Source: a virus
Virus record (IMG/VR): IMGVR_UViG_3300019776_000503
Coordinates: 1 to 21,684 of that record
Length of the DNA: 21,684 nucleotides
Direction: 5' to 3' (one strand)
How positions within the stretch are numbered: position 1 is the stretch's first letter; every line of letters starts with the position of its first letter. The position numbers and the translations under genes are program-made. The notes beneath the pieces are model-generated. The model saw nothing but the letters and a program-made list of their open reading frames with translations. It ran no database searches and had not been told where the DNA came from. Below are positions 2,265 through 18,987 of the stretch, in pieces.

Positions 2265-2714
2265 ATGACTGAACTTGAAAAATGTATTGAACTAAAAAAC
2301 AGAGGATATATATACGATTGGATTTTTGGTGTTGTTAGAAACAAAGAAGGTAAAGAGGTTGGGTGTTTTAGAGCAGGTTATAAAGGTATAAGTTTTAGTT
2401 ATAACAAAAAAGGACAAATCCTCAAAGCACATCGTTTCGGTTGGTATATGTTCTATGGAAAACTTCCTCAAAATGAAATAGATCATATCAACGGAGATAG
2501 AAAAGACAACAGGATTACAAACTTACGAGATGTTACACACCAACAAAACAACTTTAATAAAAAAGCAAAAGGTTATTATTTTCATAAACACGCTAAAAAG
2601 TTCTCCGCCGATATAAGGAAAGATGGTAAAAATATACATTTAGGATATTTTGATACAGAACAACAAGCACACGCAGCCTATTTAGAGGCAAAAAAAATAT
2701 ATCACAAAATATGA
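2265..2714 (+). CDS. HNH homing endonuclease with C-terminal AP2 domain
   Basis: This 149-residue protein is a free-standing homing endonuclease. The HNH core lies at about residues 55-95, with EIDHINGDRKDNR at 71-83 supplying the His and Asn of the motif and TNLRDVT following. Residues about 100-147 form an AP2-type DNA-binding domain (KGYYFHKHAKKFSADI, then LGYFDTEQQAHAAY). The HNH-plus-AP2 arrangement is common in phages. Its role is to cut a related site lacking the gene and so spread itself by repair. The leader before the ATG is a poly-A stretch ending TATAAATATG. Its stop overlaps the start of the methyltransferase at 2711 as ATGA, so the two are translationally linked. It interrupts an otherwise continuous glycan-modification cassette, as expected of an inserted element. 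Confidence 0.88.
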   Translation: MTELEKCIELKNRGYIYDWIFGVVRNKEGKEVGCFRAGYKGISFSYNKKGQILKAHRFGWYMFYGKLPQNEIDHINGDRKDNRITNLRDVTHQQNNFNKKAKGYYFHKHAKKFSADIRKDGKNIHLGYFDTEQQAHAAYLEAKKIYHKI

Positions 2715-3352
2715 ATATGTCATTTAATGAAAAACAAAACATCCCCCATTTTTTCCAAGAAATAGAAGGTTGGTTTACATACGCCGACCTATATTACTCT
2801 ATGGTTAAAAGAGCCGAGGAAGGAGCACACTTTGTAGAAGTTGGCGCTTGGCTCGGAAAAAGCGCGGCCTACCTCGCAACCGAAATCCACAACAGCGGTA
2901 AAAACATCAAGTTTGATGTAGTGGATCATTTTTGGGGATCCGATGAGCACACGGATCCAAACTCACGAGAATATCAACCAGAACTTTCACAAGATCCAGA
3001 TTGGTTGTATAATGAGTTCTTGAAAAACACATCACGAGTAAATCACATCATAAACACAATAAGGCAACCATCATTGGTTGCGGCAGAACTTTATGAGGAT
3101 GAAAGTTTAGATTTTGTTTTTATAGATGCGGCACACGACTATCAATCTGTTTTAGATGATATAGTCGCGTGGTTTCCAAAAGTAAAAACAGGTGCCTTCA
3201 TTTGTGGGCACGATATAACATACCACGAAGTTTCAAGAGCCGTAAATGATTTTACAGATGAAGCCGGAGAACAGGCTTATTCAGATAATAGAATGGATAT
3301 ATGGTTTATACAGAAGGGTAAAATCATAGAAAATATAATAGAAATAAAATGA
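2711..3352 (+). CDS. Class I SAM-dependent methyltransferase (Methyltransf_24-like)
   Basis: A 213-residue Rossmann-fold methyltransferase. Motif I is FVEVGAWLGKS at residues 41-51, which binds S-adenosylmethionine. An acidic strand end (FDVVDHFWG) follows near residue 76. The FVFIDAAHDY motif around 135-144 is characteristic of the Methyltransf_24/cephalosporin-hydroxylase-like group, in which the Asp and His residues help bind a metal. A second ATG at 2717 is also possible as start. It overlaps the HNH gene upstream by ATGA and the TylF-like gene downstream by ATGA (3349-3352). Its neighbours point to modification of a sugar or other small acceptor rather than DNA; that is inference. No NPPY-type DNA adenine methylase motif is present. 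Confidence 0.8.
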   Translation: MNMSFNEKQNIPHFFQEIEGWFTYADLYYSMVKRAEEGAHFVEVGAWLGKSAAYLATEIHNSGKNIKFDVVDHFWGSDEHTDPNSREYQPELSQDPDWLYNEFLKNTSRVNHIINTIRQPSLVAAELYEDESLDFVFIDAAHDYQSVLDDIVAWFPKVKTGAFICGHDITYHEVSRAVNDFTDEAGEQAYSDNRMDIWFIQKGKIIENIIEIK

Positions 3353-4002
3353 AAAACTTACCATACGCAATCGCCTATGCGAACCCTGAAACCGTTGATT
3401 TTTCCTATGAGGCGGTTTTTTTAACAAAAGATATAGAAGGAGATATAGTTGAATGTGGAGTGGCAATGGGCGCACAGATAATCGCCTTCAAGCAGGCCTT
3501 ACAAGTTTTAGGATCAGATAAAAAGATTTGGGGATTTGATAGTTTCCAAGGAATACCACTCGGTAATGAGTTTGATATAGAACAACCCGGTATTGGAACA
3601 CCCTTACATAATCAAAAAGCCGACTTACAATATAGGTTAGTTTCATCAGGCGTGACTTCACACTCAAAGGAACAAGTCATAGGTTTTTTCAATCAATATA
3701 ACACCTCGTTAGAAAGGGTTGAACTTATAGAAGGTTGGTTCCAGTTCTCATTACCCGTTTATGAAAAAGATATAGAAAAGATTTCTATATTGAGATTAGA
3801 TGGAGATTTGTATGAAAGCACCTTATGTTCGCTTCATAATCTTTATCCCAAGGTTGCCGAAGGAGGATATGTAATAGTTGATGATTGGGGTTTAGAAGGA
3901 TGTAGAAAAGCAATCACAGATTATTTTGAGAGATGGGAAGGTGAGTTCAATAAAAAAATGATCCCTGTTGGACGAGACACCGTCCATTATTTTATTAAAT
4001 GA
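3349..4002 (+). CDS. TylF/MycF-type sugar O-methyltransferase
   Basis: A 217-residue SAM-dependent O-methyltransferase of the TylF (macrocin O-methyltransferase) family. Visible landmarks are GDIVECGVAMG at 31-41 (SAM binding), WGFDSFQGIP at about 61-70, LDGDLYEST with Asp151 and Asp153, and VIVDDWGLEGCRKA with Asp178 and Asp179. The 27-residue spacing from Asp151 to the Asp178-Asp179 pair matches the magnesium-binding triad I recall for MycF (Asp191, Asp218, Asp219), so the active site appears intact. Family members methylate hydroxyls of sugars on macrolides and glycans. Together with two glycosyltransferases upstream this suggests a methylated sugar product. It starts within the previous stop (ATGA) and its own stop overlaps the next start in the same way. 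Confidence 0.82.
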   Translation: MKNLPYAIAYANPETVDFSYEAVFLTKDIEGDIVECGVAMGAQIIAFKQALQVLGSDKKIWGFDSFQGIPLGNEFDIEQPGIGTPLHNQKADLQYRLVSSGVTSHSKEQVIGFFNQYNTSLERVELIEGWFQFSLPVYEKDIEKISILRLDGDLYESTLCSLHNLYPKVAEGGYVIVDDWGLEGCRKAITDYFERWEGEFNKKMIPVGRDTVHYFIK

Positions 4003-7099: not shown

Positions 7100-7564
7100 A
7101 TGATAGAAATGAAAAACTTGGAAGGGGATTATTATGTAGATAATCACGGGAACATTTACTCAAACAAAAGTGGTGTTCCAAGGATACTGAAAAACAGGAT
7201 ACAATCTGCGGGATATTCACAGGTAATCCTATGTAATGAAGGTATAAAAAAAAGTGTGTTGGTTCATAGAATAGTTGCGATGTTTTTTATACCTAATGAT
7301 GATATACAAAAAAAGTATATCAACCACAAAGACGGCAACAAACAGAACAACCATTTTGAGAACTTGGAATGGTGCTCAGCAAGGGAAAACAACCAACACG
7401 CTTACAAAAATGGATTGAAAAAAGGTGGTAGGAAACTTCTACCCCAAAATATAATAGAAATAAGGAATAGTGATAAAAAGACAAAAGAACTATCCATTAT
7501 TTATTCTGTGTCTCGTCCCACAATATATAGAATAAAAAATAAACAAATCTGGAAAAAAATATGA
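7100..7564 (+). CDS. HNH homing endonuclease (NUMOD4-type) with C-terminal HTH
   Basis: A 154-residue free-standing homing endonuclease. The N-terminus (YYVDNHGNIYSNKSG, residues about 11-25) is the NUMOD4-like module common in these enzymes. The HNH core is INHKDGNKQNNHFENLEW at 74-91, followed by CSARENNQHAYKNG. Residues about 112-154 form a helix-turn-helix that would bind DNA (QNIIEIRN, ELSIIYSVSRPTIYRIKN). It sits directly behind the large terminase, a frequent site for such elements, and is separated by 62 bp of AT-rich DNA. Its stop overlaps the next methyltransferase start in the context AAATATGA, the same junction as the other HNH gene. It is probably an inserted mobile gene. Confidence 0.9.
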   Translation: MIEMKNLEGDYYVDNHGNIYSNKSGVPRILKNRIQSAGYSQVILCNEGIKKSVLVHRIVAMFFIPNDDIQKKYINHKDGNKQNNHFENLEWCSARENNQHAYKNGLKKGGRKLLPQNIIEIRNSDKKTKELSIIYSVSRPTIYRIKNKQIWKKI

Positions 7565-8217
7565 TTGATGAAATAGAAATACTTAAAGAACTTCTCAAAG
7601 GAACACAAAACCCTATAATCTTGGATATAGGTGCCGCTGATATGACGCACTCACAAATGTTTAGACATATCTTTCCCGAGGCAAAGATTTTTGCGGTTGA
7701 ACCAGACCACAACTACAAAGAACATAATGAAATGATGAGTTCTGCCTATAATATAGATTATACATATGGAGTTTTATGTGATACAAACTCACCTGTGCGT
7801 TTTTATCCTTCAACTTCTTATTTGAGGATAGGAGAAGAAAAATGGTCTGGTTCAGGTAGTATATTCACACCAAACCAAGAAGTAATAGATACTAAATACC
7901 CTACACTTTCTTTTGATGAAACTGGATATGAAGTGCCAGGTTATACTTGGGAGGCTTTTATGGAAATGAAAGGGATTACCCATATTGATTACTTACACAT
8001 AGATACACAAGGAGCGGAATATTCCATTCTAAAAATGATTGATAAAACTTTTCCCCTTTATATTTTTAGTGAAATATGTGAGTTTGATACTTACAACACA
8101 GGAACTACAAGGGATAGATTTGATGATATGTTATATCAAAAGAACTATGTATGTATAGGTGATGATGGAGCAAATGCTCTTTACATAAGAGCACAAAAAA
8201 TAATAGATACAAAATGA
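7561..8217 (+). CDS. FkbM-family methyltransferase
   Basis: A 218-residue SAM-dependent methyltransferase. Motif I is ILDIGAADMTHS at 20-31, the acidic ribose-binding position lies in FAVEPD near 44-49, and the FkbM hallmark HIDTQGAEYSILK starts at about 146 with Asp148. FkbM enzymes methylate hydroxyl groups of natural products and sugars, and are common in phage genomes from environmental samples. It overlaps the HNH gene upstream and the second FkbM gene downstream, each by ATGA, so all three are translationally coupled. It differs strongly from the next FkbM gene and is unlikely to be a recent duplicate. Substrate unknown; glycan modification is inferred from the family and from the cassette at 668-4002. 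Confidence 0.82.
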   Translation: MIDEIEILKELLKGTQNPIILDIGAADMTHSQMFRHIFPEAKIFAVEPDHNYKEHNEMMSSAYNIDYTYGVLCDTNSPVRFYPSTSYLRIGEEKWSGSGSIFTPNQEVIDTKYPTLSFDETGYEVPGYTWEAFMEMKGITHIDYLHIDTQGAEYSILKMIDKTFPLYIFSEICEFDTYNTGTTRDRFDDMLYQKNYVCIGDDGANALYIRAQKIIDTK

Positions 8218-8876
8218 GCGACAAAGAAAAATATAGAGGACAACTATTACAAGACCAGTTCATAGATCAGGTTTTCAATAGAAAAAGAGGTGGAACTTAT
8301 TTAGATATAGGTTCTCACGATGGATATAATCTATCTAATACTTATTTTTTAGAATATGAAAGAGATTGGACTGGGGTTCTTATTGAACCTATGGAGGATG
8401 AGTTCTTGAAATCAAAGATTTTTAGAAAAGCAGATAGTAATAAGTTTTTCAACACAGCGGTTGCTGACTATGAAGGAACTTCTGTTTTTAGAAAGATTGT
8501 AGGTGGAAGTGAAGGATTGAATATGATTTCAGGGTTGGTTGAAAATCTTGACCCTAAACACATAAATAGAATAAGGGATGAAGCAACCTCTGGTTGTGGT
8601 GAGATTGTAGATATAGAAGTTCCTGTAAGAACATTACAATCCATTTTAGATGAGTGTGGTATATATAGTTTTGATTTTTGTTCCCTTGATACAGAAGGAT
8701 CTGAACTTCCTATATTAAAAGGGATTGATTGGGGAAAAGTTGATATATCTATATTTATTATTGAAAACAACTACGGAATAGAAAAAGAAATCACACCTTA
8801 TTTAGAGGACAAAGGATATATGAGGTGGGGTTATTTGAGTTGGGATGTTGTTTATAGAAAAAAAGATTTATTCTAA
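8214..8876 (+). CDS. FkbM-family methyltransferase
   Basis: A 220-residue methyltransferase. TYLDIGSHDGYNLSNT at 28-43 is motif I, VLIEPMEDEF near 55-64 is the second SAM motif, and FCSLDTEGSELPILKG at about 155-170 with Asp159 is the FkbM signature. The DIGSHDG...NT layout is that of phage and marine-bacterial FkbM proteins. It overlaps the previous FkbM gene by ATGA, and its TAA abuts the start of the neck protein gene at 8877, so it is wedged directly against the structural module. That tight placement suggests co-expression with virion genes, fitting a role in modifying the virion or a glycan made late in infection (inference). Confidence 0.84.
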   Translation: MSDKEKYRGQLLQDQFIDQVFNRKRGGTYLDIGSHDGYNLSNTYFLEYERDWTGVLIEPMEDEFLKSKIFRKADSNKFFNTAVADYEGTSVFRKIVGGSEGLNMISGLVENLDPKHINRIRDEATSGCGEIVDIEVPVRTLQSILDECGIYSFDFCSLDTEGSELPILKGIDWGKVDISIFIIENNYGIEKEITPYLEDKGYMRWGYLSWDVVYRKKDLF

Positions 8877-9552: not shown

Positions 9553-9969
9553 ATGAGCGAACTTCCAGAAAGGATACAGAAAAAAGTAAATGAACTTGGA
9601 GCGCTCACCCACGCTTTTTTATCTAACCAAGTTCCACAACCCGGACAAAATCCATACGCAACTGGTGTGTTGAAAAGATCATTAAAGGTGAGTTATTTTA
9701 GAAGTGGTGAAAGTATAGGATGGAGATTTTCTTATTTAGATTATGGAGCCTATACAAATCTGGGAACAAAGCAATATAACAAAATAAAGTTTGGTTCTAA
9801 AAAAGCGAACCCTTGGGAACTTCCACCTTTTCGTGGATATGTAAAAGGTGAAGGTGGGATACAGGCTCAATACTGGATGACACTTTCAGAAACTACACTT
9901 CTCAAAAAGTTCAAGGAGGATATAAAAGATGAAATCAAATCTTACTTAAAGAAAAAAATGAAAAAATGA
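9553..9969 (+). CDS. HK97 gp10-like tail completion / neck protein
   Basis: A 138-residue protein with the pattern of HK97 gp10-like proteins. An N-terminal helix is followed by YATGVLKRSLKVSYF at about 36-50 (family pattern TG.L..SI.V) and DYGAYTNLGTK at about 63-73 (family pattern YA.YVE.GT). It ends in a highly basic helical tail, KDEIKSYLKKKMKK. These small proteins join the tail to the head-tail connector. The order neck protein, gp10-like, tail assembly chaperone supports this. It overlaps the chaperone start by ATGA at 9966-9969. Confidence 0.6.
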   Translation: MSELPERIQKKVNELGALTHAFLSNQVPQPGQNPYATGVLKRSLKVSYFRSGESIGWRFSYLDYGAYTNLGTKQYNKIKFGSKKANPWELPPFRGYVKGEGGIQAQYWMTLSETTLLKKFKEDIKDEIKSYLKKKMKK

Positions 9970-10655
9970 TTACAAGTTTTACAATAGGATTAAAAAGATA
10001 TAATGTTCGTGATATAAAAGTTAAAGACCTATATTACATTTTAGATACAGAAAAATATGGTGATAGAGAAGGTGCCCTTCATATAGTATCACATCTTTCA
10101 GGGTGTCCCAAAGAGGACTTGAATAAGTTGAAACCTTTTCAGTTCAACCCATTATGGGGAATGATTACAGATAAAATAAAAATGGTTGAGGCACCACTAC
10201 ATACAGAAATAAAACTGAATGGAACCCATTATGGTTTCATCAAACTTGATGAGATTACCGTAGGGGAACTCGCGGATCTTGAACTTCTAAAAGTTGCTGG
10301 TAATAAAGAAAACAACACACACAAAATCCTTTCTATTTTATATAGACCTATTACTGGATATATTGGAAATAAATATACCATAGAGGAATATGATGGAACT
10401 AAAACACTTGAAAGAAGTGATGATTTTTTAGAACTGGATTTAGATATTATGAATGGTGCCATTTTTTTTTTCATAACTTTCATACAAACCTTTACAAATC
10501 GTATGAGCGGGCTTTTGGTGGAGGAGTTGAGGACGACACAAGCAGATATAACACAAAAACCCAACAAGGAGTTCTCGCTCTTTGGACGGACATACTCTAT
10601 ACCTTGGCAAAAGATGACCCGCTCAAAATCGGTGAAGCCTCTAAATGTGGGGTGA
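9966..10655 (+). CDS. Zero-frame product of the tail assembly chaperone gene (G-like)
   Basis: Without a frameshift the gene ends at a TGA at 10653-10655 and gives 229 residues. About the first 168 are shared with the longer form. The last 60 or so (from ITFIQTF onward) lack the regular look of a domain. In lambda the short protein G is the major product and a few percent frameshift to GT. Here the zero frame runs unusually far past the slip site, which counts mildly against a classical programmed shift. It overlaps the gp10-like gene by ATGA and lies upstream of the tail genes. Confidence 0.6.
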   Translation: MITSFTIGLKRYNVRDIKVKDLYYILDTEKYGDREGALHIVSHLSGCPKEDLNKLKPFQFNPLWGMITDKIKMVEAPLHTEIKLNGTHYGFIKLDEITVGELADLELLKVAGNKENNTHKILSILYRPITGYIGNKYTIEEYDGTKTLERSDDFLELDLDIMNGAIFFFITFIQTFTNRMSGLLVEELRTTQADITQKPNKEFSLFGRTYSIPWQKMTRSKSVKPLNVG

Positions 10656-10735
10656 TACATTGCTTTAACTATTTGGTTCGTAAAAAAGCCGAAGTAATGG
10701 AAAGTATGAAAAAAAATGTGAAAACAAGATTTTAG
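9966..10735 (+). CDS. Tail assembly chaperone, full-length by -1 frameshift (GT-like)
   Basis: Reading frame 9966 codes for a soluble protein up to a run of ten T at 10462-10471. Shifting back one base there, the sequence continues 88 codons to a TAG at 10733-10735, giving a 256-residue product. The shifted part is clearly protein-like: NLYKSYERAFGGGVED, then VLALWTDILYTLAKDDPL, KIGEASKCGVIHCFNYLVRK and a basic end. The unshifted continuation after the T-run looks like out-of-frame sequence. Siphophage tail assembly chaperones upstream of the tape measure (lambda G/GT) classically use a -1 frameshift, so this may be programmed. A homopolymer sequencing error (11 or 8 T in reality) would have the same effect. 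The domain FIKLDEITVGELADLELL at about 89-106 fits such chaperones. Confidence 0.6.
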
Positions 10736-14642: not shown

Positions 14643-17333
14643 ATGGCAGAAGTAATAGATTTTACACTTGAAATAAACGGGGTTGATAGAGCCGTCAAAA
14701 GCGTTGAGGATTTAGAACAGGCGGTTAAAGACGCCAGACAGGCTTTTTCACAGGGAAACTTTGGAGAAGCCGAACTAAAATCTTTGGAAAAACAACTCCA
14801 AAATGTAGAAAGAGCGGCTCAAAGAGCGGGTGAAAGTGTGAAAACAGGAGCAAGGGCTGCTGGTTCAGGTGCCGCCTCGGCCAAAGATAAAGTGGATTTA
14901 TTGAGGGAAAGTTTTGATGGTGCTGGAACCGCGGCTGAAATCTTATCAGGAAACTCACAAGAAGTAGGTAATATAGTTTCAACAACTATGAGAGCAATAA
15001 GTGTGTTGAACGCCGCTCGTGAAGTTGCTGAAAATAAAGTCACAGCGGCTATTTTGAGAAAACTTGGTGTTGAGAAACTCGCTCAAGCATCACAAAGGAT
15101 TATGACCGGCTTACAGGCAGCGTATAATGTTGTTCTTTCAGCCAACCCTATTGGTTTGGTAATCGCCGCGATCGCCGCCTTGGTAGGTGCCTTTGCTCTA
15201 TTAAAAAGACCTATTGAGAACTTCCTAAAAGAGTTTGATAGTATCGGTAAAGTAGTAGATTTGATTATTGGAAAGTTGAGGGATTTAGGTTCCCTTCTTA
15301 CTTTTGGTTTGATTGACGACAACGCAACATCCAAAGCAAAAGCCAATATACAATCTATTTTAGATCAATATGAAAATCTTGAAAGCGCGGCAAATCAAGA
15401 AATAAATAATCAAACCAGATATGTAAATGAACTCAAAGCCCGTGGTGGAACAGCCATAGAGATTTTCAACGCTGAAAAGAAACTTCTTGAACTTAAAGTA
15501 AATCGGGAACAAGATACTATCAATAAACTTAAAAACTTCGCTCGTGATCTAACCGACGAACAAAGAACCCAGTTAGGGAAAATGAAAGAACAAGTAAGAA
15601 ACTATCAAAGCGATCTTGCTGTGTTAAACTCTAACTTCCAAAGACAAGAAGGAGAAAAAACAAGAGCGGCAGAACAGAGATATTTAGATGAAAAAGACAA
15701 AAGATTAAAAGAGGAAAAAAGTAGGATACAAAAAGGTCAAGATGAGATACTCCGTTTAGAACAGAAATATAATCAACTTCTTTTAGATGATGAAGTGAAA
15801 ACTATGAAAATGTTGGCGAACATCAGCGACCCACTTGGGCCGGAGGAAGCAAACCAAATGAGGAGAATGGAGTTTATGGAGGATATATATAAACAAGAAC
15901 TAAAAGCGCTCAGAGAAAGGGGTGCTTCTTTGGATGAAGTAAGAGCCCTACAAGCCCGTTTTGAGATGTTTATGTATGATGCCCAATCTAAAACTATATT
16001 AGGGAAAAAGTTAAAAAATATAGATTTAGAGGAAAAAATAGAAAATCAAAAAGCAAAAAAACTTGGAGAACTCCGAAAAAAAGAACTTGATGATGAACTT
16101 TCTTTGATTGAGGAACAACTACAAAAAAAGGAAATCACAGCCGAGGCAGCATCAGCCAAAATCGCGATTATAGAAAAAGTAAGGCGGGCTGTTGATAGGG
16201 AACTTGCCGATCAGGAAGGACAAAGAAAAGATGAGTTCAATAAAAAAAGAGAGGAGGCCGAGGAGGAACATTACAACAATCTCGCAATCATACAACAACA
16301 ATATAACGAACAATCAGAGGGATATGATAAAGAAGCGGCTGAAAATAGAGAAAAAACTTTTAATGATTTATTTACACAAATAGAGGCCGATATGAACGCG
16401 GCTCTTTACGCTCTTGAAAAATATAGAGAAGGCTTAGAAGGTGAAGGGGGTAGATTTTTCCAGAACTGGTCTAAAAACACACTCAGCAGAACTATAAAAG
16501 TATATAAGGACGCGATAGAAGTTGCCAAAAATGGGTTAAATGATTTACAAAATCAACTCAATAGAAAAAGTAAAGAGATCGCCGAAGCCGAACAAGAACA
16601 GGCAGCAGGTGCTGTTGTTGATATGGATCAGTTATATAAGGAAAAATCAAAGATTTTAGAAAAATATTTTAACTTCAAGAAAAATATAGTTGATTTAGAA
16701 AAAAGTTTAGATGAGGAAGTTTATGAAGGATTAGTTATGAGAGCCGAAGCCCTTTCTGGACTTTTTAGAGGTATGATGGAAATGACTGGTAAAGACCTAA
16801 AAAGGTATAAAGCAATGGCTATAACACAATCCATACTTGATACTTTGGCTGGTATAGGTAGAGCACTCGGTGGAAGTAAGCCACCTTGGAACTACATCGC
16901 GGCGGCTGGTGTTGGTCTGGCTGGTTGGGCAAATGTGAATAAAATAAGAAACACTCAAACTGATAGTGCTGATGGTGGGGGTGGGGACACAGAAGTTCAA
17001 CCAAGAAAACTTGCTCGTGGTGGTTTATTATACGGCCCATCTCACGGATCAGGTGGTATAAGAACTTCTTTTGGAGAACTTGAAGGGGGTGAGTTTGTAA
17101 TAAATAAAAGATCCACACAGAAATACGGCCCTCTTATTTCGGCAATCAATATGGCTGGTGGTGGTAAGAAGTTTGATACAGGTGGTATGTTAGGTTCAGA
17201 AGCAATGATAGGTGATTTAATGAACCAAGTTAAAATGAACCAAGAAACCCCTATCAAAACTTATGTAGTCGCAACAGATGTTTCAACAGCGTTGGAGGCT
17301 CAAACTAAAATAAGATATAAGACAACACTATAA
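14643..17333 (+). CDS. Tape measure protein
   Basis: At 896 residues this is the classic tail-length ruler. Residues 1-160 are helical with Ala/Gln-rich heptads. A hydrophobic membrane-type segment lies at about 165-190 (SANPIGLVIAAIAALVGAFALL), which may act in DNA entry. A long charged coiled coil fills roughly 270-720, rich in EEK and QKK heptads. The C-terminus has the Gly-rich tape-measure signature at about 789-815 (ARGGLLYGPSHGSGG, then GELEGGEFVINKRS). Length multiplied by the usual 0.15 nm per residue suggests a tail of about 130 nm. It starts one base after the hub-like gene. Confidence 0.93.
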   Translation: MAEVIDFTLEINGVDRAVKSVEDLEQAVKDARQAFSQGNFGEAELKSLEKQLQNVERAAQRAGESVKTGARAAGSGAASAKDKVDLLRESFDGAGTAAEILSGNSQEVGNIVSTTMRAISVLNAAREVAENKVTAAILRKLGVEKLAQASQRIMTGLQAAYNVVLSANPIGLVIAAIAALVGAFALLKRPIENFLKEFDSIGKVVDLIIGKLRDLGSLLTFGLIDDNATSKAKANIQSILDQYENLESAANQEINNQTRYVNELKARGGTAIEIFNAEKKLLELKVNREQDTINKLKNFARDLTDEQRTQLGKMKEQVRNYQSDLAVLNSNFQRQEGEKTRAAEQRYLDEKDKRLKEEKSRIQKGQDEILRLEQKYNQLLLDDEVKTMKMLANISDPLGPEEANQMRRMEFMEDIYKQELKALRERGASLDEVRALQARFEMFMYDAQSKTILGKKLKNIDLEEKIENQKAKKLGELRKKELDDELSLIEEQLQKKEITAEAASAKIAIIEKVRRAVDRELADQEGQRKDEFNKKREEAEEEHYNNLAIIQQQYNEQSEGYDKEAAENREKTFNDLFTQIEADMNAALYALEKYREGLEGEGGRFFQNWSKNTLSRTIKVYKDAIEVAKNGLNDLQNQLNRKSKEIAEAEQEQAAGAVVDMDQLYKEKSKILEKYFNFKKNIVDLEKSLDEEVYEGLVMRAEALSGLFRGMMEMTGKDLKRYKAMAITQSILDTLAGIGRALGGSKPPWNYIAAAGVGLAGWANVNKIRNTQTDSADGGGGDTEVQPRKLARGGLLYGPSHGSGGIRTSFGELEGGEFVINKRSTQKYGPLISAINMAGGGKKFDTGGMLGSEAMIGDLMNQVKMNQETPIKTYVVATDVSTALEAQTKIRYKTTL

Positions 17334-17336
17334 AAA

Positions 17337-17351
17337 TATATTTATGAATAT
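17337..17351 (+). promoter_or_regulatory. TATATTTATNRRTAT motif before the maturation protease
   Basis: TATATTTAT-GAA-TAT. The ATG at 17344 lies inside the motif, while the in-frame ATG at 17350 sits at its end, exactly as the start at 5519 does in the terminase copy. This supports 17350 as the real start if the motif is a promoter giving a leaderless mRNA. It follows the tape measure stop by three bases. Confidence 0.45.
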
Positions 17352-18987
17352 GAAGGAAGTAGTAGAACTCCAAATAAACGATGATGAAAATGAAAGTGGT
17401 GTATGGGCGATTGCTCTTGTAGAACAACCAGCCATTTCAGTTGATTTTTACGCCTTTAATGATGATACAGAAATGGTTGATGGTATAGTTGATATACTGG
17501 TAAAGATAAAAGACCCAGAAAACAGAAGGGAAGTTTTAGATGATGTCTTGAAAGATTTAGAAAATGAAGGAATAGACACAGAAGGTCTTATACAAAGAGT
17601 AATGGGTGAGGAGTTTGAGACCTATAATGATTACCCAAAGGCAGCCTCTGAAAACGCTTGTTCTGCTTTGAGATGGGCTGAGGAAAATGGTTGGGGTGAT
17701 TGTGGAACTCCTGTTGGAAAAATAAGAGCCAACCAACTTTGTAAGGGTGAAAACATTTCTCGTGAAACTATATCACGGATGGCTTCTTTTGCTCGTCATA
17801 GAGAAAACGGACAAAGGGAACTTGGTGATGGTTGTGGTCGGCTTATGTGGCAATCTTGGGGTGGAGATGAGGGAGTTGATTGGGCGATAAGAAAACTTGA
17901 AACATTAAAAGCCGAAAAGGAAGTTTTTGTAAAACCAAGAGCCGGTGAAAAGGAGGATGAGTTCATACCAAGATGTATGAGTGTTTTAATAGGTGATGAA
18001 GGATATGATGAAAAACAAGCCGCCGCAATCTGTTATACTTATTGGGAGGAAAAAATGGGTGTTGATGTTAGTGGATTGGCTCCTTATATACAAAATATTA
18101 AAGGTAAAAATAAAAAAAGGAGATATGAAGCACAAGAACTCGTTTTAGGTTTTTGTAAGGAGTTTGGATATACAGAAAAAGATTTAGAAAAGTTCGCAAA
18201 TGCGTCTTTGGGTGGTGGAATAAATAGTGTGGAACAGATGCCCCTTTGGGTTAGGGATCCGAGGGTTCAGACAACCTTATATAAATATGAAGGTGGTTTA
18301 AGATCTAACTCACGAGATTTCTGTATAGAAATGGTTGGACTAAATAAGTTCTATACTTTTGATATGATCGAGGCGATGGAAAACCTTGTTGTAAATGCTG
18401 GGTTTGGAGCCAGAGGAGCCGATACTTATTCTATATGGAGATATTTAGGCGGCAAAAACTGCTACCACTTTTGGAGGAGATACACTTATGTATGGAAAGG
18501 TGAAAACTTTGAGTTATTGAGTGAAGCAAGAGTTAAAGGATTGCCGGGAACTCGTATGATTGATAGACCCCGTGGTGGTGGGTTAAAGATGAGTTATGAG
18601 ATGTTTTATGATGAGGAACAGAAAGTTTTGGTTGGGCCTGTAATGGTTCCAGATATAGAAATCCCCAGAAAAGATGAAAATGATGAGGTATATTATGTAT
18701 ATTTTACACCTGAAACAATCAAATCCATCAGGGATAAGTTTATGAAAACCCAAACTAATCACGCAACAAACCAAGACCACGATGAGACAAAACCCGCTGA
18801 TACTTATATTATTGAAACTTGGATCAAAGAGGATGATGAGGACAAATCTAAAAAATATGGGTTTGGGGAACTCCCAGTTGGAACTTGGTTCTGTATGATG
18901 AAAGTTTTAAGTGATGAAGTATGGAAAAGAATAAAAGAAAAAGAGTTGAACGGATTTAGTGTAGAAGGACATTTCATAAAAAAATAA
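17350..18987 (+). CDS. Multidomain capsid maturation protease (XkdF/Peptidase S78_2-like)
   Basis: This 545-residue protein (547 from the ATG at 17344) combines several modules. Residues 1-40 carry VELQINDDENESGVWAIALV, typical of phage protease N-termini. About 93-178 is a domain with DYPKAASENA, GKIRANQLCKG and SRMASFARHRE, known as a fused accessory domain in phage head proteins. About 200-233 holds a small Cys-containing module (FIPRCMSVLIGDEGYDEKQ). About 309-385 holds SRDFCIEMVG and CYHFWRRYTYVW, a Cys/His-containing domain. About 413-545 is XkdF-like, with candidate catalytic His471 or His477 (NHATNQDHD) and Ser537 (NGFSVEGHF). It should cleave scaffold and capsid during maturation. 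Its place directly before scaffold and MCP is the standard order. The roles of the middle domains are unknown. Confidence 0.75.
   Translation: MKEVVELQINDDENESGVWAIALVEQPAISVDFYAFNDDTEMVDGIVDILVKIKDPENRREVLDDVLKDLENEGIDTEGLIQRVMGEEFETYNDYPKAASENACSALRWAEENGWGDCGTPVGKIRANQLCKGENISRETISRMASFARHRENGQRELGDGCGRLMWQSWGGDEGVDWAIRKLETLKAEKEVFVKPRAGEKEDEFIPRCMSVLIGDEGYDEKQAAAICYTYWEEKMGVDVSGLAPYIQNIKGKNKKRRYEAQELVLGFCKEFGYTEKDLEKFANASLGGGINSVEQMPLWVRDPRVQTTLYKYEGGLRSNSRDFCIEMVGLNKFYTFDMIEAMENLVVNAGFGARGADTYSIWRYLGGKNCYHFWRRYTYVWKGENFELLSEARVKGLPGTRMIDRPRGGGLKMSYEMFYDEEQKVLVGPVMVPDIEIPRKDENDEVYYVYFTPETIKSIRDKFMKTQTNHATNQDHDETKPADTYIIETWIKEDDEDKSKKYGFGELPVGTWFCMMKVLSDEVWKRIKEKELNGFSVEGHFIKK

Follow-up and report, generated by a model that had tools for sequence, protein, structure and literature searches.

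A tail-module gene of an aquatic phage group keeps two C-terminal reading frames behind a run of at least nine T and is probably expressed through RNA polymerase slippage

The virus contig analysed here, whose whole length of 21,684 bases is called the window, has in its tail module a zero-frame ORF of 229 aa (9966-10655) that spans a run of ten T, preceded by A (10461) and followed by C (10472). Read from 10469, the -1 frame gives 88 residues before its stop, and the +1 frame is shut immediately after the run (Table 1). The extents given by an earlier sequence-only reading, namely A and T10 at 10461-10471, a zero frame ending at 10655 and a -1 frame open to 10735, were all confirmed on the window sequence. 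No ATG, GTG or TTG occurs near the run in the -1 frame of the window, and the nearest upstream stop in that frame is 13 codons away; therefore, the -1 part would not easily be read from a start of its own.

Table 1. Features of the slip gene and its neighbours in the window
Feature	Positions	Strand	Remarks
Upstream gene, tail completion / Neck1 protein	9553-9969	+	phrog_5, E 9.7e-10
N-terminal domain common to both products, up to the run	9966-10461	+	ORF; phrog_32199-like; putative tail assembly chaperone
T10, proposed slip site	10462-10471	+	codon phase A TT/TTT/TTT/TT C
C-terminal tail of the 229-aa short product, zero frame	10472-10655	+	stop TGA 10653-10655; ORF maintained in family
C-terminal domain of the fused long product, -1 frame	10472-10735	+	87 codons past the T run; stop TAG 10733-10735; conserved in relatives
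Probable dual-coding overlap of both C-termini	10472-10655	+	openness, amino acid similarity and synonymous-codon tests
TAA in the +1 frame	10474-10476	+	would end the reading of transcripts that lack one U
Putative tail tape measure protein	14643-17333	+	weak TMP_N and tape-measure profile matches; two genes separate the slip gene from it

We regard the gene as a putative tail assembly chaperone from its position together with weak profile matches, gene order being the better evidence. In the window the order is Neck1, slip gene, two genes and putative tape measure gene, and in two relatives (L003 and L012) it is TerL, slip gene, four genes and tape measure gene. The placement in the tail module made by the sequence-only reading is therefore upheld by the Neck1 gene upstream and the putative tape measure gene downstream; its phrase "before the tape measure" is right as to upstream but not as to directly before. 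The profile phrog_32199, annotated as of unknown function, matched all 47 sampled family members, whereas PF10109 (Phage_TAC_7), which scored 20.6 bits in the window and so stayed under its cut-off of 25, matched four and phrog_166 (tail protein) gave weak matches in five of the 47. Structure models were obtained for the short product of the window (pLDDT 83.6) and for the long product of L010 (pLDDT 91.5), and in both the slip junction is predicted to fall inside a long helix. No usable PDB match was obtained for these models with Foldseek and VIA-align, or by sequence profile; the BFVD matches were mostly uncharacterized phage proteins, with one "tail assembly chaperone" at a weak E of 0.089. 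Elsewhere in the window, a 547-aa ORF (17344-18987) carries an XkdF-like protease domain at its C-terminus (PF14550, residues 423-543), and its residues 313-397 match a family of portal proteins (phrog_33693); this points to a head gene that was fused or rearranged. By eye, HNH homing endonuclease-like ORFs are found before and directly after the terminase region (2265-2714 and 7100-7564), and several methyltransferase-like ORFs (2711-4002 and 7561-8876) are interspersed in the packaging/structural module.

The arrangement is not confined to the window. An initial search found one relative with 62% identity in the N-terminal domain (L001) and more distant ones (L002-L007), all of them split alike at T10 or T9. 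Altogether 347 related loci were gathered, with identities to the window as low as ~25%, and most of these sequences came from two scans with N-terminal patterns and three narrower scans; the alignment-based scans (A1 and A3) relied on peptide patterns from the N-terminal part, outside the run. Among the 269 loci with distinct sites, T9 was found in 227, T10 in 39 and T11 in one, each with two long frames, and these account for all but two sites, namely an A_AAT_TTT variant and a deletion, both without the run. Neither T7 nor T8 was seen at any of the 267 T-run sites. The isolate Nonlabens phage P12024L belongs to this set, where the site is CTTTTTTTTTAT (T9) with a -1 extension, and both parts are entered in GenBank as two hypothetical proteins. 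An alignment-based search of genome contigs found the gene on two contigs of one Winogradskyella MAG, and a search of genome contigs with one protein as query gave no match. The Winogradskyella contigs point to Flavobacteriia, which are probably the hosts of this aquatic phage group. A hypothetical protein of Flavobacterium phage 2A (ANB40923.1) may be a distant relative (hhalign probability 64.5%, 122 columns), and its phage 6H counterpart gave a fold match (BFVD E 7.9e-4). Unlike the slip gene, the phage 2A gene (L348 759-1640) has no T run and reads as one 293-aa ORF. The phage 6H gene (L347 10352-10927) is split, and the sequence around its break differs from that of phage 2A; it resembled another frameshift case, but the phage 2A counterpart is one ORF, and the split may be real or an error.

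Downstream of the run, the -1 domain is conserved across relatives, which, along with the same layout at nearly all of the 269 distinct sites, bears out the earlier claim that the gene continues in the -1 frame. The zero-frame tail was examined by resampling given the -1 protein and the codon usage of each genome. The resampled sequences closed the zero frame early, whereas the real one stayed open longer than predicted in 99 of 133 representatives (p<0.05; median p 0.012), each sequence being tested individually and the 133 being related to one another. Residue similarity in the zero frame was 33.7% as compared to 21.4% in simulation, albeit the simulation ignores shared ancestry, which inflates the difference, so that its size is not a probability. 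Synonymous-codon identity was 0.645 in the overlap, 0.503 upstream and 0.624 in the short region after the overlap, and is weak when taken alone. Of the relatives for which both ends are available, all but three have a +1 frame that closes within 14 codons; thus, base composition does not account for the open frames. These comparisons argue that the zero-frame tail has been kept as a reading frame within the family and, since it is maintained along with a conserved -1 domain, that the overlap of the two C-termini is dual coding. Hence "disordered-looking", as the zero-frame tail had been described, does not do justice to it in the family, although openness is borderline in the window (p=0.05) and not significant in its nearest relative, L001 (p=0.28). 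There is a precedent for such a long zero-frame tail with dual coding in SPP1, where gp17.5 has the first 112 of its 173 aa in common with gp17.5* (PMC6316719); the distance from slip site to zero-frame stop averages 26 nt in the SEA-PHAGES set (PMC10885494). Judging from the reading frames, two protein endings are almost certainly obtained from the same DNA in this family via a run of at least nine T.

Several variant lineages are informative in this respect. L278 (T10) and L311 (T9) are 92-96% identical and one T apart, and in L278 the long product is read directly with the short tail intact in the +1 frame. The same swap of frames is seen between L010 (T11) and L268 (T10), with the long product direct and the short tail again intact in the +1 frame of L010. 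Because the frames are swapped, polymerase slippage could still make both products in L010 and L278, whereas a -1 ribosomal shift could not. Both are single contigs, and assembly error could be responsible there. As evidence against a shift, the sequence-only reading had named homologues with a natural zero-frame ending, or relatives in which 8 or 11 T leave a single open frame: no T8 was found, and the two continuous sites among the 269 are these, T11 in L010 and T10 (T9 plus one) in L278, whose intact short tail in the other frame fits slippage. L081 and L084 (IMGVR 3300027571_000406 and 3300000928_001514) carry the gene without the T run, as AATTTTATTTAC, with a canonical in-frame A_AAT_TTT heptamer and both frames open for 83 and 90 codons, and may represent a switch from polymerase to ribosome slippage. 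In L284, the run is lost through a deletion that leaves the long product fused in a single frame, the tail region being open for 74 codons in the +1 frame.

In our view, the gene at 9966-10735 probably gives rise to two proteins with a common N-terminus and different C-termini through RNA polymerase slippage on the T run. Bacterial polymerase slips on at least nine A or T (PMC5009743, PMC6260861, PMC1088944), and the run is never below nine T at the T-run sites, whereas a ribosomal heptamer needs only T7, which argues for the polymerase. The run is found in all three codon phases, and where a T is lost on its 5' side (GAT, AGT), there is T on the 3' side (TTG, TTT) with nine kept, as in L014, L048 and L054; about 20 changes of run length or phase are needed on a tree of 138 protein rows, and the retention of nine T through these changes likewise favours the polymerase. 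So does the retention of the run in GC-rich members that prefer TTC, e.g. L030, which at ~55% GC has CTTTTTTTTTGG. Furthermore, long T and A runs are avoided elsewhere in the coding sequence of the same genomes. By codon resampling over 450 kb, T runs of at least nine were observed three times against 14.9 expected, T8 once against 13.8, and A runs of at least nine nine times against 48.7. T7 is avoided in every frame, and least so in the ribosomal X_XXY_YYZ frame (observed/expected 0.43, as compared to 0.05 and 0.19 in the others), a pattern consistent with a cost that does not depend on frame, such as slippage during transcription or replication. The argument from avoided slippage-prone runs follows Baranov et al., including the caveat (PMC1088944) that replication slippage can be a further source of long-run avoidance. 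The serious weight that the sequence-only reading gave to slippage was well placed. Of the few other runs of at least nine T in these phages, several (e.g. L003 9853, L029 9739 and L064 5345) follow a C-rich stretch directly ahead of the chaperone gene and are terminator-like.

Programmed -1 ribosomal frameshifting on U_UUU_UUU, where the ribosome slips back one base and reads into the long product, is possible, albeit rather unlikely as the explanation for the family. T_TTT_TTT, a legal -1 heptamer, is in frame at every site with T9 or more, and ribosomal shifting is general in tailed phages (PMC5009743). SPP1, with the same gene layout and a 61-aa zero-frame tail, has a UUUUUUC site at which a shift was predicted (PMC6316719), and the run-less L081 and L084 retain A_AAT_TTT with both frames open. 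On this explanation the extra T would be due to the local amino acids (L/V/I-F-F-Y/W), against which stand the lack of T7 and T8 at all 267 T-run sites and the compensation of T across codon phases. Moreover, U_UUU_UUU is reported to shift far less readily than A_AAA_AAG in E. coli (PMC5009743). No nested RNA structure was detected 3' of the run, the mean MFE z of -0.1 to -0.3 being the same as in control windows and RNAalifold giving 0 pairs (one isolate-record row was left out of two structure analyses), and this also argues for the polymerase. Shine-Dalgarno-like motifs upstream of the run are few (10 of 133 representatives), yet commoner than in a single control window (1 of 133). Against the ribosome also speak the fact that elsewhere T7 is least avoided in the ribosomal frame, and the lineages L010 and L278, where the short product could not be made by a -1 ribosomal shift. 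In view of these points and of the swap of frames with both proteins intact in the lineages with one extra T, transcriptional slippage is favoured over -1 ribosomal frameshifting, and both may act.

A decayed gene or two separate genes, with the -1 part a relic or self-initiated, is very unlikely. The two parts in P12024L are indeed annotated in GenBank as two proteins, and GTG or TTG occurs near the run in the -1 frame of 67 of 133 representatives. However, both frames are conserved over deep divergence, the window has no start near the run in its -1 frame, and an ATG near the run is found in only five of the 133 representatives; over all 133, the last -1 stop lies a median of 15 codons before the run. 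From this survey of start codons and upstream stops we judged separate initiation of the -1 part unlikely; in addition, L010 encodes directly the long product that was modelled at pLDDT 91.5. Even less probable is a homopolymer sequencing or assembly error with a true T number of 8 or 11 and one continuous frame: homopolymers this long are error-prone and two of the 269 distinct sites read continuously, but the same split recurs in hundreds of contigs from independent metagenomes, in the Winogradskyella MAG and in the isolate P12024L, and the zero-frame tail itself is maintained, so that error, to which the sequence-only reading had given equal weight, is rejected for the family.

What we observed at the locus are both reading frames, their conservation and a selected run length, and from these we infer that the shift is made by transcription rather than translation. 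Under polymerase slippage, the 229-aa short form, which ends at 10655, would come from ordinary transcripts with U10. RNA polymerase would slip on the T run in some fraction of transcripts, and those with one extra U, or two fewer, would yield by ordinary translation the long form, which ends at 10735. If lambda is a guide (PMC5009743), both forms may function in tail assembly: the short form would be the more abundant chaperone, acting on the tape measure protein, and the long form a minority adaptor to the tube protein.

It is reasonable to consider what this would mean, although the wider proposal stands at even chances in our estimate. In it, a large aquatic phage group, probably of Flavobacteriia, has swapped the ribosomal tail frameshift for polymerase slippage on T9-T10, with the C-termini dual-coded over ~50-90 codons; the chaperone ratio, and thus tail assembly, would then be set by transcription, and at least one lineage (A_AAT_TTT) would be ribosomal. 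The G/GT shift is a standard example of ribosomal recoding in tailed phages, and dnaX of Thermus and of E. coli follows the same protein logic with a differing expression layer. If the polymerase slips at the run, the phage group would have the same protein logic as G/GT via another expression layer, as with dnaX, with a polymerase-dependent chaperone ratio. The survey also identifies hundreds of recoded genes that had gone unannotated, as well as a long overlap with dual coding, and the proposal is directly testable in the isolate Nonlabens phage P12024L. An arrangement like that of lambda G/GT is known; the change of mechanism would be new and, though unproven, is well supported.

As compared to known systems, the gene resembles lambda G/GT in having, at the sequence level, two products with a common N-terminus and a -1 C-terminal extension, and in being a tail-module gene upstream of the tape measure gene, although in the window the putative tape measure gene does not follow it directly, being separated from it by two others. 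Neither sequence nor fold comparison gave a match to gpG/gpGT. The slip site is T9-T11 here, and slippage is probably by the polymerase, whereas in lambda it is by the ribosome. The zero-frame tail is mostly ~50-90 codons as compared to a few in lambda, a difference that the sequence-only reading had correctly pointed out, though it has a precedent in SPP1 gp17.5 (PMC6316719). SPP1 gp17.5/gp17.5* is in fact the nearest precedent for the layout, with a U-run slip inside the gene and a long zero-frame tail overlapping the -1 extension; it differs in its UUUUUUC (T6C) site, its predicted ribosomal shift and its Gram-positive host, with no demonstrated homology (PMC6316719). The Nonlabens phages P12024L and P12024S (P12024L_40/41 and P12024S_38/39) are isolate members of the family itself, and differ from the others in a short zero-frame tail of ~24 codons; their parts are entered as separate hypothetical proteins with no frameshift annotated. 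Among the open-access papers searched, the recoding cases found for phage tails were all ribosomal, with no polymerase-slippage tail case, and those of polymerase slippage concerned IS elements, dnaX and secretion systems. These transcriptional cases, i.e. Thermus dnaX, Shigella mxiE/spa13, IS transposases and Citrobacter tssM, have an A9/T9-type run and two C-termini (PMC5009743, PMC1088944, PMC4256274). The present family is like them in that long runs are avoided elsewhere in genes, and unlike them in that the run is conserved over a whole phage group with probable dual coding downstream.
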